Below, piece by piece: positions 26,937-30,371 of a stretch of DNA of 64,000 bases. The DNA lies in contig NZ_CP062948.1 in assembly GCF_014898175.1 (NCBI RefSeq), forward strand, positions 1,860,001 through 1,924,000. The letters run 5' to 3'. The notes beneath the pieces are model-generated. The model searched no databases, had not been told where the DNA came from, and worked only from the letters and a program-made list of their open reading frames with translations. Both the position numbers and the translations under genes were made by a program. Within the stretch, counting starts at the first letter, position 1. Each line of letters begins with the position of its first letter. Origin of the DNA: Bifidobacterium lemurum (lineage in GTDB: Bacteria > Actinomycetota > Actinomycetes > Actinomycetales > Bifidobacteriaceae).

Positions 26937-26952
26937 GATTCGAGTGTTTTCG

Positions 26953-27026
26953 TGACCCCGGCCGGGCTCGAACCGGCGACCTTGAGATTAGAAGTCACAT
27001 GCTCTATCCAGCTGAGCTACGGGGCC
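26953..27026 (-). tRNA. tRNA-Arg, anticodon TCT
   Basis: A 74-nt cloverleaf. The 7-bp acceptor stem GGCCCCG pairs with CGGGGTC (one G-T pair). The D-stem is GCTC/GAGC, the anticodon loop CTTCTAA, and the T-arm GCCGG-TTCGAGC-CCGGC. The discriminator is A, and CCA is not encoded. The anticodon stem TGTGA/TCTCA contains one T-T mismatch (positions 29-41). Confidence 0.95.
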
Positions 27027-27142: not shown

Positions 27143-28171
27143 CTACAGGAGTTTGGATAGCACGGCGGCGATGTCGTCCTGGATTTCGAAGCCTTGGCTC
27201 ACATCCGCGGCGTCGATGCGGGCGTCGTCGTAGTTGATGCGGATCAGCGGAATGTCGAACATCGCGGCGATCGCCTCGAAGGGGAAACGGATGATGCTGG
27301 GCGTGTTCCAGCCCACGCCGAGCTCAAGCAGCACGGTCGGCACGTCAGGGCGCTCCTGCAGCCGTTGGATGAAACGGTTATAGCGGCGCTGCGCCTCATA
27401 CCACGCCTCGTCCTGCACGAAATACTGGTCGCAGCGCAGATGCACCATCATCTGCCCGCCGCACACCGGGCAGTGCGGCACCAGGTCGCTGGGAATCGCG
27501 CAGTCCACGGTGCGCTCGAGCATCCGCGGCACCAAGTCGTCCAGCGGGTAGACGCGCTGATGGCAGCCGCGCATGCACTGCATGAAGCCGTAGTCGCCCT
27601 GCGTGGCGAAGATCTGGAACGGGTCGAAGCCCGCCTTGGCGAACTGCGCGTCCACATTCGTGGTGAGCACGAAGTAGTCCTTGTCGTGCACGCCGTCCAA
27701 CAGCTGTCGGTACAGCGGCATCGCCGGCGGCTCGTAGCGGCTCAGATCCACATGCTTCGCCCAATACGCCCAGCGCTCCTCGTCGGTGGGGTAGGGGTAG
27801 AACGATGAGGAGTACAGGTCGGATATGCCGTACTTGTCGATCCATGGGCCGAAGTTGCGGGTGAAACGTTCGCCGGAATACGTCAATCCCGCCGCTGTGG
27901 ACAGTCCCGAGCCCGCGCCGATGAGCACGCGTTCGCTGCCCGTGATCAGCTCGCGCGCCTCGGCGAGGATATCGTCCGCGTCGGCTTCGTCGTCGACTCC
28001 GAGTCGTAGGTCGATGCCGACGTGATCGGCGTCCGCCCATACGTCCTCGCTCCCGCCGAAAGCGGAGTCGTCGCTGCCGGTCTCCGAAGGTTCCGGCGCG
28101 GCCAGCAGGTCCGTTGCGTCGAGGAGCTCGCCGGACTGTGCGGATTGTCTCTTATGCGTCCAGAAGGGCAT
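27143..28171 (-). CDS. SirTM-class (class M) sirtuin, probable protein ADP-ribosyltransferase
   Basis: A 342-residue sirtuin-fold enzyme. The NAD motif GAGSGLSTAAGLTYSG is followed by TTNVDAQFAKAG and then IFATQGDYG. In canonical sirtuins the last motif has the catalytic histidine (HG). Here N172 and Q191 keep the 19-residue spacing of the Asn-Gln pair known in SirTM enzymes, which ADP-ribosylate proteins instead of deacetylating them. Cysteines in QCMRGC and HCPVCGG suggest a zinc site. The first 70 residues are an acidic extension not needed for the fold. ATG 28171 has AAAGGA upstream and overlaps the macrodomain gene by 20 bp. The family's known partners are a macrodomain protein and a lipoylated GcvH-like carrier. 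Confidence 0.85.
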   Translation of the reverse strand: MPFWTHKRQSAQSGELLDATDLLAAPEPSETGSDDSAFGGSEDVWADADHVGIDLRLGVDDEADADDILAEARELITGSERVLIGAGSGLSTAAGLTYSGERFTRNFGPWIDKYGISDLYSSSFYPYPTDEERWAYWAKHVDLSRYEPPAMPLYRQLLDGVHDKDYFVLTTNVDAQFAKAGFDPFQIFATQGDYGFMQCMRGCHQRVYPLDDLVPRMLERTVDCAIPSDLVPHCPVCGGQMMVHLRCDQYFVQDEAWYEAQRRYNRFIQRLQERPDVPTVLLELGVGWNTPSIIRFPFEAIAAMFDIPLIRINYDDARIDAADVSQGFEIQDDIAAVLSKLL

Positions 28172-28955
28172 GGTAGATCCTTTCGTCCTCTTCGCCGAAC
28201 ACGTTGAACACCACATGGGTGACGCCCGCGTCGGCATGCCCGTCGAGCCATGCGCGCGTCTCGCGCACGGCGATGGCGGCGGCCTCGCGTTGTGGAAAGC
28301 CGAACACGCCGGTGCTGATGCAGCAGAATGCGAGGCTCGCGCAGCCCAACCGCGCCGCCTCGTCCAAACAGTGGCGGTACGAGGAGGCGAGCTGCGCGCG
28401 ATGTTCGTCGGTGGGGGCGCCGTTCGCGATCGGTCCCACGGTGTGGATGACATGCTTCGCCGGCAGATTGTATGCGGCGGTGGATTTCGCGAGTCCTGTG
28501 GGTTCCGAATGGCCCTGGGATTCCATCAGCCGCGCGCATTCCAGACGCAGCTGCACGCCGGCGAAAGTGTGGATCGCGTTGTCGATGCAATGGTGGTTCG
28601 GCGACCAGCAGCCGGTCATGCCGGCGTTGGCCGCGTTCACGATGGCGTCCGCGCGCAATGTCGTGATGTCGCCGCGCCAGACGGACAGGCGCGCGTCGGC
28701 TTTGGTGCGGGGAAGTTCGTCGGCCTCGGTGACGCCGGCGCGCGCGATGACCTCGCGCAGCACCCGGTCCTGTGGTTCCAGAAACGCAGGAGACGCCTCC
28801 ATCGGCGCGCGGGTGTTCGCCAACGCGCGGAAGGTGGACCACAACTGGTCGAAATCCCGCTCGTCCAAAGCGTGGTCGGCCGCCGTCATGCCGCACTCCT
28901 CGAGCATAAGGCGGATGAGGCCGCGCAAGGCCTCAGTGAGTTCGGAATCGGTCAT
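28152..28955 (-). CDS. Zinc-containing macrodomain ADP-ribosylhydrolase
   Basis: A 267-residue protein. An N-terminal helical region (about 1-90) leads to a macrodomain with the ADP-ribose motifs DAIVNAANAGMTGCWSPNHH, CIDNAIHTFAG and STGVFGFP. The cysteine-histidine-cysteine cluster in GCWSPNHHCID matches the zinc site of Zn-macrodomains described in Staphylococcus and Streptococcus. These remove ADP-ribose added by SirTM. ATG 28955 has AAGGAG 6 bases upstream; the frame start at 28973 is rejected. It is the first gene of a two-gene operon with SirTM. Confidence 0.88.
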   Translation of the reverse strand: MTDSELTEALRGLIRLMLEECGMTAADHALDERDFDQLWSTFRALANTRAPMEASPAFLEPQDRVLREVIARAGVTEADELPRTKADARLSVWRGDITTLRADAIVNAANAGMTGCWSPNHHCIDNAIHTFAGVQLRLECARLMESQGHSEPTGLAKSTAAYNLPAKHVIHTVGPIANGAPTDEHRAQLASSYRHCLDEAARLGCASLAFCCISTGVFGFPQREAAAIAVRETRAWLDGHADAGVTHVVFNVFGEEDERIYHALLDA

Positions 28956-29004
28956 GACTGCTCCTTGCTGCACGGCCCCCGGATGGAGGGGCTGCCACTT
29001 TATG

Positions 29005-29168
29005 CGTCATCCCATGGGGATGCTTCGGCTTCGTTGTGCTCCGCTCAGTATGACGAATGGTCATTATCAATGTCATCCCGAGCGGAGCGCGAAGCGCGTA
29101 GTCGAGGGATCTAGTTTGGTGCAATGCTAGGAGATCCTTCGACTACGCTTCGCTCCGCTCAGGATGAC
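29005..29168. repeat. Dispersed palindromic repeats (REP-like), copies 3 and 4
   Basis: One unit lies at 29005-29053 (GTCATCCC to CTCAGTATGAC). A second, larger hairpin lies at 29072-29168 (GTCATCCCGAGCGGAG, inverted as CTCCGCTCAGGATGAC). They fill the 311-bp gap between the macrodomain gene and the NAD(P)-binding protein gene. Two shorter related words follow to about 29240. Confidence 0.85.
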
Positions 29169-29266
29169 GGGAAGGTGGAGGGTTCTCCGCCTTGGATGAC
29201 AGGGAGGGGTTCTCCGTTTTCCTTAGGATGACGGAGAAGGGAGAGCGCTCTCCGCTTGAGGGTGGA

Positions 29267-29893
29267 TTAGTAGCGCACGGAGATGCGCTCGCGCACGTGG
29301 CCGCCGTTGACGGCGAGGTCCACCATGGCGACGGCGTAGTCCGCATAGCTCAGCGCGCTCACGCCGTTGGCATCGGCGGTGTATTCCTCGCCGGCGAGCA
29401 CATACTCGCCCTTGCGCTCGCCTTCGGCCTGGAAGTCGGCGGCCGGGCTCACGTAGGTCCAGTTCACGTCATCGCGCTTGCGCAGCTCGACGAGCTGGTT
29501 GCCCATCGCGTTGGCGAGCGGCTTGAAGACCTCCGGGAAGGATTCGAGATCCTGGACCTGGGCGGTGTGGGTGGCGTCGAGGAAGAGGCTGCCGGCGCCG
29601 CCGACCACCAGCAGGCGGGTGTCGGTGCCGGAGAGGATGTCGGCCAGATGCATCAGCGAGGTGGTGTGCTGCGGCAGGGTCTCCGGGGTCCAGGCGCCGA
29701 AGGCGTCCACGACCACGTCGAAGCCGGCGAGGTCGGCGGCGGTCAGGTCGAACAGATCCTTGACCAGCACGTTCTCGGCCACGGTTTTGTTCTCGCCGCG
29801 CACCACCGCGGTGACGTCGAGACCGCGATCCACGGCCTCCTTGACGATAAGCTGGCCGGCCTTGCCGTTCGCTGCGACGACTGCGATCTTCAT
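29267..29893 (-). CDS. NAD(P)-binding protein (NmrA/atypical SDR, YwnB type)
   Basis: A 208-residue single-domain Rossmann protein. The dinucleotide motif AANGKAGQLIVKEA is at residues 7-20, followed by VTAVVR, VVDAFGAW and VVGGAGSLFLD. This pattern matches atypical SDRs such as YwnB/YhfK-like NAD(P)H-binding proteins. Start ATG 29893 is preceded by AAGGAGCAACTT. It is divergent from an HxlR regulator across a 145-bp intergenic region with a clear palindrome. Such pairs are typically thiol or quinone-stress modules. The substrate is not known. Confidence 0.88.
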   Translation of the reverse strand: MKIAVVAANGKAGQLIVKEAVDRGLDVTAVVRGENKTVAENVLVKDLFDLTAADLAGFDVVVDAFGAWTPETLPQHTTSLMHLADILSGTDTRLLVVGGAGSLFLDATHTAQVQDLESFPEVFKPLANAMGNQLVELRKRDDVNWTYVSPAADFQAEGERKGEYVLAGEEYTADANGVSALSYADYAVAMVDLAVNGGHVRERISVRY

Positions 29894-29963: not shown

Positions 29964-29990
29964 AAGTAGGCACTATAAAGTGCTATACTT
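29964..29990. promoter_or_regulatory. Candidate HxlR operator overlapping TATACT -10 box
   Basis: The 27-bp stretch has nested arms: AAGTA..TACTT outside and GCACT..AGTGC inside, around ATAA. TATACT at 29984-29989 is a good -10 for the HxlR gene. The operator lies in the divergent promoter, so the regulator could control both genes. Confidence 0.65.
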
Positions 29991-30038
29991 ACCAAAAGGG
30001 AAGCATTGTGAGTTTCCAACGAAAAGAAAAGGTAGAAA

Positions 30039-30371
30039 ATGACCCAAGAAACCAATCTCCCGGCGTGTCCTGTGGAGACCACCCTGATGCTGATCAGCGA
30101 CCGCTGGAAGGTGCTGATCCTTCGCGACCTGATGGGCGGCGCGAGGCGTTTCGGCGAGCTGCAGCGTTCCGTCGGCAAGATCTCGCAGAAGGTGCTCACC
30201 TCGAACCTGCGCGCCATGGAGCAGGACGGTCTGGTGAAACGCAAGGTGTACGCCGAGGTGCCGCCGCGCGTCGAATACTCGCTGACCGCGACCGGCAAAA
30301 GCCTGCAGCCCATCGTCGACGCGATGAAGGCGTGGGGCGAGCAATACCAGAAGGACCACGGCGCGCGCTGA
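30039..30371 (+). CDS. HxlR-family winged-helix regulator
   Basis: A 110-residue protein. The family signature runs from C10 (ACPVE), a conserved redox-type cysteine, through LISDRWKVLILRDLM and FGELQRSVGKISQKVLTSNL (the winged helix) to LTATGKSL. A single cysteine is typical of thiol- or quinone-sensing members (YodB, QorR, HypR). It is divergent from the NAD(P)-binding protein, which is its likely target. Start ATG 30039; upstream AAAAGGTAGAAA provides a ribosome-binding site. Confidence 0.93.
   Translation: MTQETNLPACPVETTLMLISDRWKVLILRDLMGGARRFGELQRSVGKISQKVLTSNLRAMEQDGLVKRKVYAEVPPRVEYSLTATGKSLQPIVDAMKAWGEQYQKDHGAR

Follow-up and report, generated by a model that had tools for sequence, protein, structure and literature searches.

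A minimal-operon SirTM and Zn-Macro pair beside a putative quinone reductase and a candidate thiol-based sensor in a bifidobacterium

Introduction

Bacterial pairs of a class M sirtuin (SirTM) and a Zn-Macro occur in independent or in extended operons (PMC4518038), and the sections of PMC4518038 and PMC11490716 that deal with their organisation distinguish three layouts: the lone pair, the extended operon with GcvH-L and LplA2, and a fungal fusion. SirTM, Zn-Macro and their lone pairs are thus already known. The only known target of a SirTM is GcvH-L, and the account of targets in PMC11490716 calls those of other SirTM/Zn-Macro systems, together with the role of this signalling, elusive. According to the same account, the minimal-operon Zn-Macro MorMacro leaves GcvH-L modified, and no hydrolases other than Zn-Macros are known to cleave ADP-ribose linked to cysteine. 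As far as these papers describe the hosts, the pairs belong predominantly to pathogens, whereas the pair is common in the commensal gut bacteria considered here. Among openly licensed PMC papers, our literature search found no description of a SirTM in Bifidobacterium and none that connects lone pairs with sensors of the DUF24 or Rrf2 family and with YwnB-type reductases.

Results and discussion

An overlapping SirTM and Zn-Macro gene pair

The window, the 64-kb stretch C1:1860001-1924000 of the genome to which the positions below refer, carries on its minus strand a gene for a putative protein ADP-ribosyltransferase of the SirTM class (27143..28171, 342 aa) and, immediately upstream, one for a Zn-Macro, a putative ADP-ribosyl hydrolase (28152..28955, 267 aa). 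Both frames lie where the first-pass annotation, which had proposed a SirTM and Zn-Macro module in a bifidobacterium, placed them, and the 20-bp overlap that it reported is found at 28152-28171, the SirTM gene starting with an ATG at 28171 that is preceded by GAAAGGA. The pair is a lone pair, or minimal operon, a layout that has already been described. A tRNA-Arg gene (tct, 26952-27026) lies directly downstream of the SirTM gene and is a possible integration point.

The 19 residues that separate N172 from Q191 in the sirtuin, a spacing already picked out by the annotation, equal the distance between N118 and Q137 of SpySirTM, and the third catalytic residue of that enzyme, Arg192, is also kept, as R246; all three are invariant in two alignments (32/32 and 18/18 rows). 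The Q191-G192 dipeptide, which replaces the HG that holds the catalytic His, is invariant in 32/32 rows, the class M motif GVGx[NT]TP is present as GVGWNTP, with N313 as the adenine-ribose Asn, and two Cys pairs are found in CMRGC and CPVC. The protein matches 5a3a in a PDB sequence comparison (E 6.6e-47) and NCBIfam NF003163 at 302 bits (cut-off 272), and it is absent from the matches of the Pfam SIR2 model at E ≤ 0.001, which fits a divergent class of sirtuin.

In the Zn-Macro, the zinc-type cysteine-histidine cluster that had been noticed upstream of the sirtuin reads C116-WSPN-H-H-C123 and fits Cx4HxC; NAAN stands at residues 107-110 and Dx3H is found as D125-NAI-H129. Helices at 3-20, 35-48 and 56-73 of the structure model form a predicted three-helix N-terminal bundle, and the model matches 8rsi, 8rsl and 5kiv over its whole length, with MorMacro (8rsi) and 8rsl sharing first place among the structural matches. 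In comparisons with two related species, the SirTM core gave dN/dS values of about 0.07 and 0.06, and Zn-Macro 0.08 and 0.14. Family, catalytic residues and fold are supported by these data and the enzyme identity of both proteins is well supported; on sequence grounds, we infer an activity in which the pair very probably attaches ADP-ribose to proteins and removes it again.

The first-pass annotation also drew attention to an acidic N-terminal extension of SirTM, which exists as residues 1-66 (27974..28171, minus strand; 17 Asp or Glu, 3 Lys or Arg) but is weak ground for the different substrate that it was held to suggest. Structure prediction, which the annotation had recommended, gave AlphaFold2 pLDDT < 50 for residues 1-60, and the extension is predicted to be disordered. 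Its dN/dS is 0.43 and 0.51 (two related species); it is unalignable in relatives, lacks 23 residues in one close relative (G031), is a short, unlike tail in another (G053) and has no counterpart in other SirTMs. On the low pLDDT, high dN/dS and failure to align in relatives, we rejected the extension as a domain.

A quinone reductase homologue and a candidate sensor upstream

What the annotation overlooked was the context next door, which recurs with the pair elsewhere. At 311 bp upstream of the Zn-Macro gene lies that of a YwnB-type NAD(P)H quinone reductase homologue (29267..29893, minus strand, 208 aa, PF13460), whose best PDB match is 4r01_A (phmmer E 1.9e-73, residues 1-206 of 208). As PMC9218516 describes it in the part on this protein, 4r01 is Streptococcus pneumoniae YwnB, whose NAD(P)H quinone reductase activity has been assayed and which is under the control of SifR, a quinone sensor of the Rrf2 family. 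This likeness suggests that the PF13460 protein of the window is a putative NAD(P)H quinone reductase. Divergent from its gene is that of a DUF24/HxlR transcriptional regulator with an N-terminal Cys10 (30039..30371, plus strand; PF01638, 123 bits), nearest in the PDB to Bacillus subtilis YybR (4a5m, E 1.8e-26), which we take to be HypR, and also matching YodB (5hs7, E 9.2e-19). Cys10 is kept in 38/40 HxlR homologues at SirTM loci, and a conserved N-terminal Cys is what allows DUF24 regulators to respond to quinones, diamide and HOCl, according to the sections of PMC6943732 and PMC8063818 on this family. Conservation of the residue suggests a candidate thiol-based sensor of the YodB or HypR type. 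The HxlR and Rrf2 families both include proven thiol-based quinone sensors. PADLOC gave the HxlR protein a weak match to Csa3 (E 2.5e-4), which we attributed to a helix-turn-helix common to both and set aside.

A candidate operator, ATACTTACCAAAAGGGAAGCAT, lies at 29985..30006 (no strand assigned) in the divergent HxlR-YwnB intergenic region. Of 20 bifidobacterial stretches between HxlR and YwnB genes (6,096 bp), 13 contain the core ACCAAAAGGGAA with at most two mismatches, against 12 matches in the other 232,922 bp, figures that come from a pattern chosen by eye after looking, from related genomes and from a set in which 3 of the 20 stretches, at under 100 bp, were hardly tested. The best dyad found in the HxlR-YwnB intergenic region was equalled by 77 (window) and 76 (G031) of 100 shuffles, and promoter and terminator scans returned no more than in shuffles. 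The 311-bp gap before Zn-Macro is rich in inverted repeats, and a motif search found no operator-like site in it; with the gap so filled and such a site missing, co-transcription of the YwnB gene with the pair is something that we infer from strand and order. Dense REP-like inverted repeats span 29000-29240, between the YwnB and Zn-Macro genes.

Recurrence of the gene order at other SirTM loci

A scan of named genomes gave 585 confirmed relatives of SirTM, and the counts in this paragraph refer to the loci, all in other genomes, of the best 80 of these 585, from Bacillota, Bacteroidota, Actinomycetota, Methanobacteriota, Pseudomonadota and Myxococcota; the loci are interrelated and many contigs are short, so that the counts are descriptive, with the downstream side as an internal control. 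A Zn-Macro frame was found at 65/80. An HxlR or Rrf2 gene lay within 4 kb upstream at 45/80 and downstream at 3/80 (28 against 1 for HxlR, 18 against 2 for Rrf2), and at the 46 loci with 4 kb on both sides the figures were 27 upstream and 3 downstream. The upstream HxlR gene was divergent in 25/28 cases, and a single Cys in a CxVG context is common to 23/23 Rrf2 rows. PNPOx-like proteins were similarly placed (23 upstream, 3 downstream), as were YwnB-type proteins (9 and 2), and Rrf2 and YwnB-type genes stood together at L038, L046, L074, L081 and L093. Neither regulator was seen within 4 kb upstream at 35/80, where many contigs end early. Both the gene order and its recurrence are supported by these counts. 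FMN reductases (4 upstream, 4 downstream), LysR proteins (4 and 6) and flavodoxins (0 and 5) were rejected as linked neighbours, having no upstream bias.

Several loci depart from this layout. At 15 of the best 80 of 585, e.g. L036 and L040, a SirTM stands without a Zn-Macro frame in the stretch covered, in some cases well inside a contig and in some on a contig that ends early. Two SirTM-like genes share one locus at L074 and at L109, and two bacterial proteins, P0047 (583 aa) and P0048 (598 aa), are SirTM-Zn-Macro fusions that begin with the sirtuin, opposite to the domain order of fungal Mfs1.

Distribution and phylogeny in Bifidobacterium

Across 112 Bifidobacterium genomes, SirTM matches were obtained in 39 at E ≤ 0.001 and in 17 below 1e-20, the latter being counted as SirTM genomes; the other 22 (E between 3.7e-5 and 8.9e-4) look like ordinary sirtuins by sequence. 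The YwnB gene (E < 1e-50) is present in 48/112, namely in 13 of the 17 SirTM genomes and in 35 of the 95 others (Fisher p 0.003, uncorrected for kinship). It adjoins the pair in 10/17 SirTM genomes, with a divergent HxlR gene in 9/17, and among the seven in which adjacency was not seen, a contig end interrupts the locus in one, the gene lies elsewhere in two and four lack it. Since the YwnB gene occurs in 35 of the 95 genomes without SirTM, and an HxlR gene lies near it in 12 of 15 loci sampled from such genomes, the unit of sensor and reductase also exists independently of the pair.

In a tree that included 13 of the 18 bifidobacterial SirTM loci (five fragments or near-copies were left out), a single clade of bifidobacterial SirTMs was rejected (p-AU 4e-11, with two long outgroup branches in the tree), and at least three changes are needed, which could include losses or transfers out. 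The window SirTM clusters with Coriobacteriia-like sequences, its nearest named relative being that of B. eulemuris. For the bifidobacterial YwnB genes, 90% of bootstraps recovered a branch that separates them from the rest of the tree (support 89/70), and their monophyly, as judged from these sequences, is not firm. The window trio, G027 and the set of G030, G051, G008 and G101 stand apart on the SirTM tree and all have an adjacent YwnB gene; the simplest reading is that foreign pairs were repeatedly joined to one resident module, with in-place replacement of the pair at that module as a further possibility.

The genus also holds altered copies. A SirTM subgroup (L029, L031 and L028, from G008, G101 and G014) has lost most of the four zinc-finger Cys, QSSRTG replacing QCxxxC and YCPDDG replacing CPxC, with the catalytic residues kept; G014 has two SirTM loci. 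Broken SirTM copies with a frameshift or stop in G038 (L032) and G064 (L033) are signs of loss in the genus. In G056 (L117) Zn-Macro runs into a degraded SirTM-like stretch, and in G044 (L116), where no SirTM was found, HxlR, YwnB and a shortened Zn-Macro precede a restriction-specificity-like frame.

The target of the pair and alternative explanations

A genome-wide profile search, which the first-pass annotation had advised for GcvH-L and LplA2, found no GcvH or lipoate-ligase gene in the 64-kb window; the annotation was right that none adjoins the pair, but the absence is not odd, being normal for a minimal operon as PMC4518038 outlines that layout. The sole GcvH match in the genome lies at C1:464014-464367, 1.4 Mb from the pair, and two PF03099 matches lie at C1:457428 and C1:647716. 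With E 1.8e-26 to Escherichia coli GcvH and 7.4e-6 to GcvH-L 5a35, this GcvH is by sequence of the canonical type, and a frame about 6 kb from it has motifs that we take to be LplA-like. GcvP was above cut-off in none of the 112 genus genomes (three weak matches fell below it, one in this genome) and GcvH in 99/112, leaving GcvH an orphan in the genus; because GcvH is present in 16/17 genomes with SirTM and in 83/95 without, it does not follow the pair. A phmmer search with the genome's own GcvH, a query that reaches 5a35 in the PDB and so is not blind to the GcvH-L type, found a GcvH-like frame at 0/80 SirTM loci (best 80 of 585). R175 and R176 of SauMacro, part of a surface linked to GcvH-L binding, correspond to N178 and G179 in the window Zn-Macro, and 0/17 aligned Zn-Macros have an Arg at either place. 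Since a minimal-operon Zn-Macro does not demodify GcvH-L, the different substrate that the annotation had raised is likely, and the target of the window pair is probably a protein other than GcvH-L. As Zn-Macros alone are known to cleave cysteine-linked ADP-ribose, a thiol target would, speculatively, fit the redox setting of the pair.

We consider it unlikely, though deserving of some weight, that SirTM works as its counterpart in the extended operon does, but in trans, on the lipoylated GcvH that this genome encodes elsewhere. One GcvH and a presumably LplA-like frame are at hand, and GcvH has no visible job in glycine cleavage in a genus where GcvP is above cut-off in 0/112 genomes and GcvH in 99/112. 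S. pyogenes likewise has GcvH-L without a cleavage system in the description given by PMC4518038, but the GcvH of this genome is canonical, does not follow the pair, being found in 83/95 genomes that lack SirTM, and faces a Zn-Macro without the Arg patch linked to GcvH-L binding, and MorMacro, itself from a minimal operon, spares GcvH-L in the assays that PMC11490716 reports.

A toxin-antitoxin or anti-phage pair like DarTG, in which SirTM would harm the cell and the macrodomain protect it, could be read from the pairing of writer with eraser and from their patchy spread (17/112 genomes), but is improbable: neither of the two proteins, nor the reductase, has a PADLOC family, 15 of the best 80 of 585 SirTM loci have no Zn-Macro seen (some contigs end early), a Zn-Macro frame persists in one genome (G044) where no SirTM was found, and the neighbours are redox genes. 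Slightly less probable still is self-modification, with the disordered SirTM tail and its 17 acidic residues in the first 66 as the enzyme's own acceptor, reset by Zn-Macro; the passages of PMC11490716 on linkage have Zn-Macros removing Glu- and Asp-linked ADP-ribose, but close relatives have lost part of the tail (G031) or carry an unlike one in its place (G053), and other SirTMs do without one. We give almost no weight to the reading of the sirtuin as a normal deacylase in which one catalytic residue has been exchanged, despite the sirtuin fold and a weak NCBIfam deacylase match (18.8 bits against a cut-off of 243): Gln replaces the catalytic His, all class M residues are kept, the same genome encodes a separate canonical sirtuin with TQN...HG, and in the enzymology presented by PMC4518038 a Gln-to-His change abolishes SirTM activity and SirTMs are without deacylation.

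A possible electrophile-responsive ADP-ribosylation switch

With moderate confidence, we favour a minimal-operon SirTM/Zn-Macro pair set in a redox module, where the two enzymes would reversibly ADP-ribosylate a protein other than GcvH-L as a switch coupled to electrophile stress. The module would run from a DUF24/HxlR repressor-type sensor through the divergent YwnB-type reductase to Zn-Macro and SirTM. Quinones or other electrophiles would modify Cys10, upon which the regulator would leave its operator and the module be induced; the YwnB-type reductase would clear the electrophile by reducing quinones, SirTM would use NAD+ to ADP-ribosylate an acceptor side chain of the target protein, and Zn-Macro would strip the ADP-ribose off again, the two enzymes thereby setting a reversible mark on a protein of the electrophile response.

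More tentatively, and as a proposal that we hold to be possible but somewhat doubtful, lone pairs across gut bacteria could form a quinone and electrophile-stress ADP-ribosylation system, upstream of which unrelated one-Cys sensors (DUF24, Rrf2) were repeatedly recruited, and whose target would be a redox enzyme or a protein of the response that carries cysteine. If true, the quinone and electrophile-stress reading would give the minimal operon its first physiological role. The link to a sensor and a quinone reductase provides lone pairs with a testable setting, with quinones, diamide and HOCl as candidate inducers, and suggests the YwnB-type reductase, the PNPOx-like protein and the regulator as candidate targets.

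Comparison with known systems

The closest known systems are the minimal-operon pairs of PMC11490716, those of Methanobrevibacter oralis (MorMacro) and the lone pairs of Enterococcus and Treponema, which, as far as that paper details them, have in common with the window the overlapping genes, fold, zinc loop and catalytic residues, and equally lack an adjacent GcvH-L or LplA2; in contrast, the DUF24 regulator and YwnB-type reductase upstream of the window pair have no equivalent in the descriptions of those loci. The extended operon of Staphylococcus aureus and S. pyogenes has the same two enzyme families and, in the account of PMC4518038, has ties to oxidative stress and to the oxidoreductases LLM and OYE, whereas the window is without GcvH-L, LplA2, OYE and LLM and has N and G at the positions of R175 and R176 of SauMacro. 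Fungal Mfs1 (8rsn), a macrodomain-SirTM fusion, is the second-best match of the window SirTM in both sequence and structure, but joins in one chain what the window encodes in two separate genes. Finally, the SifR-YwnB regulon of S. pneumoniae places a YwnB-type quinone reductase under a one-Cys sensor (PMC9218516), as the window may do, although the candidate sensor of the window is of the DUF24/HxlR and not the Rrf2 family, and the regulon as set out in that paper includes no reported SirTM, which in the window stands with its Zn-Macro beside the reductase.
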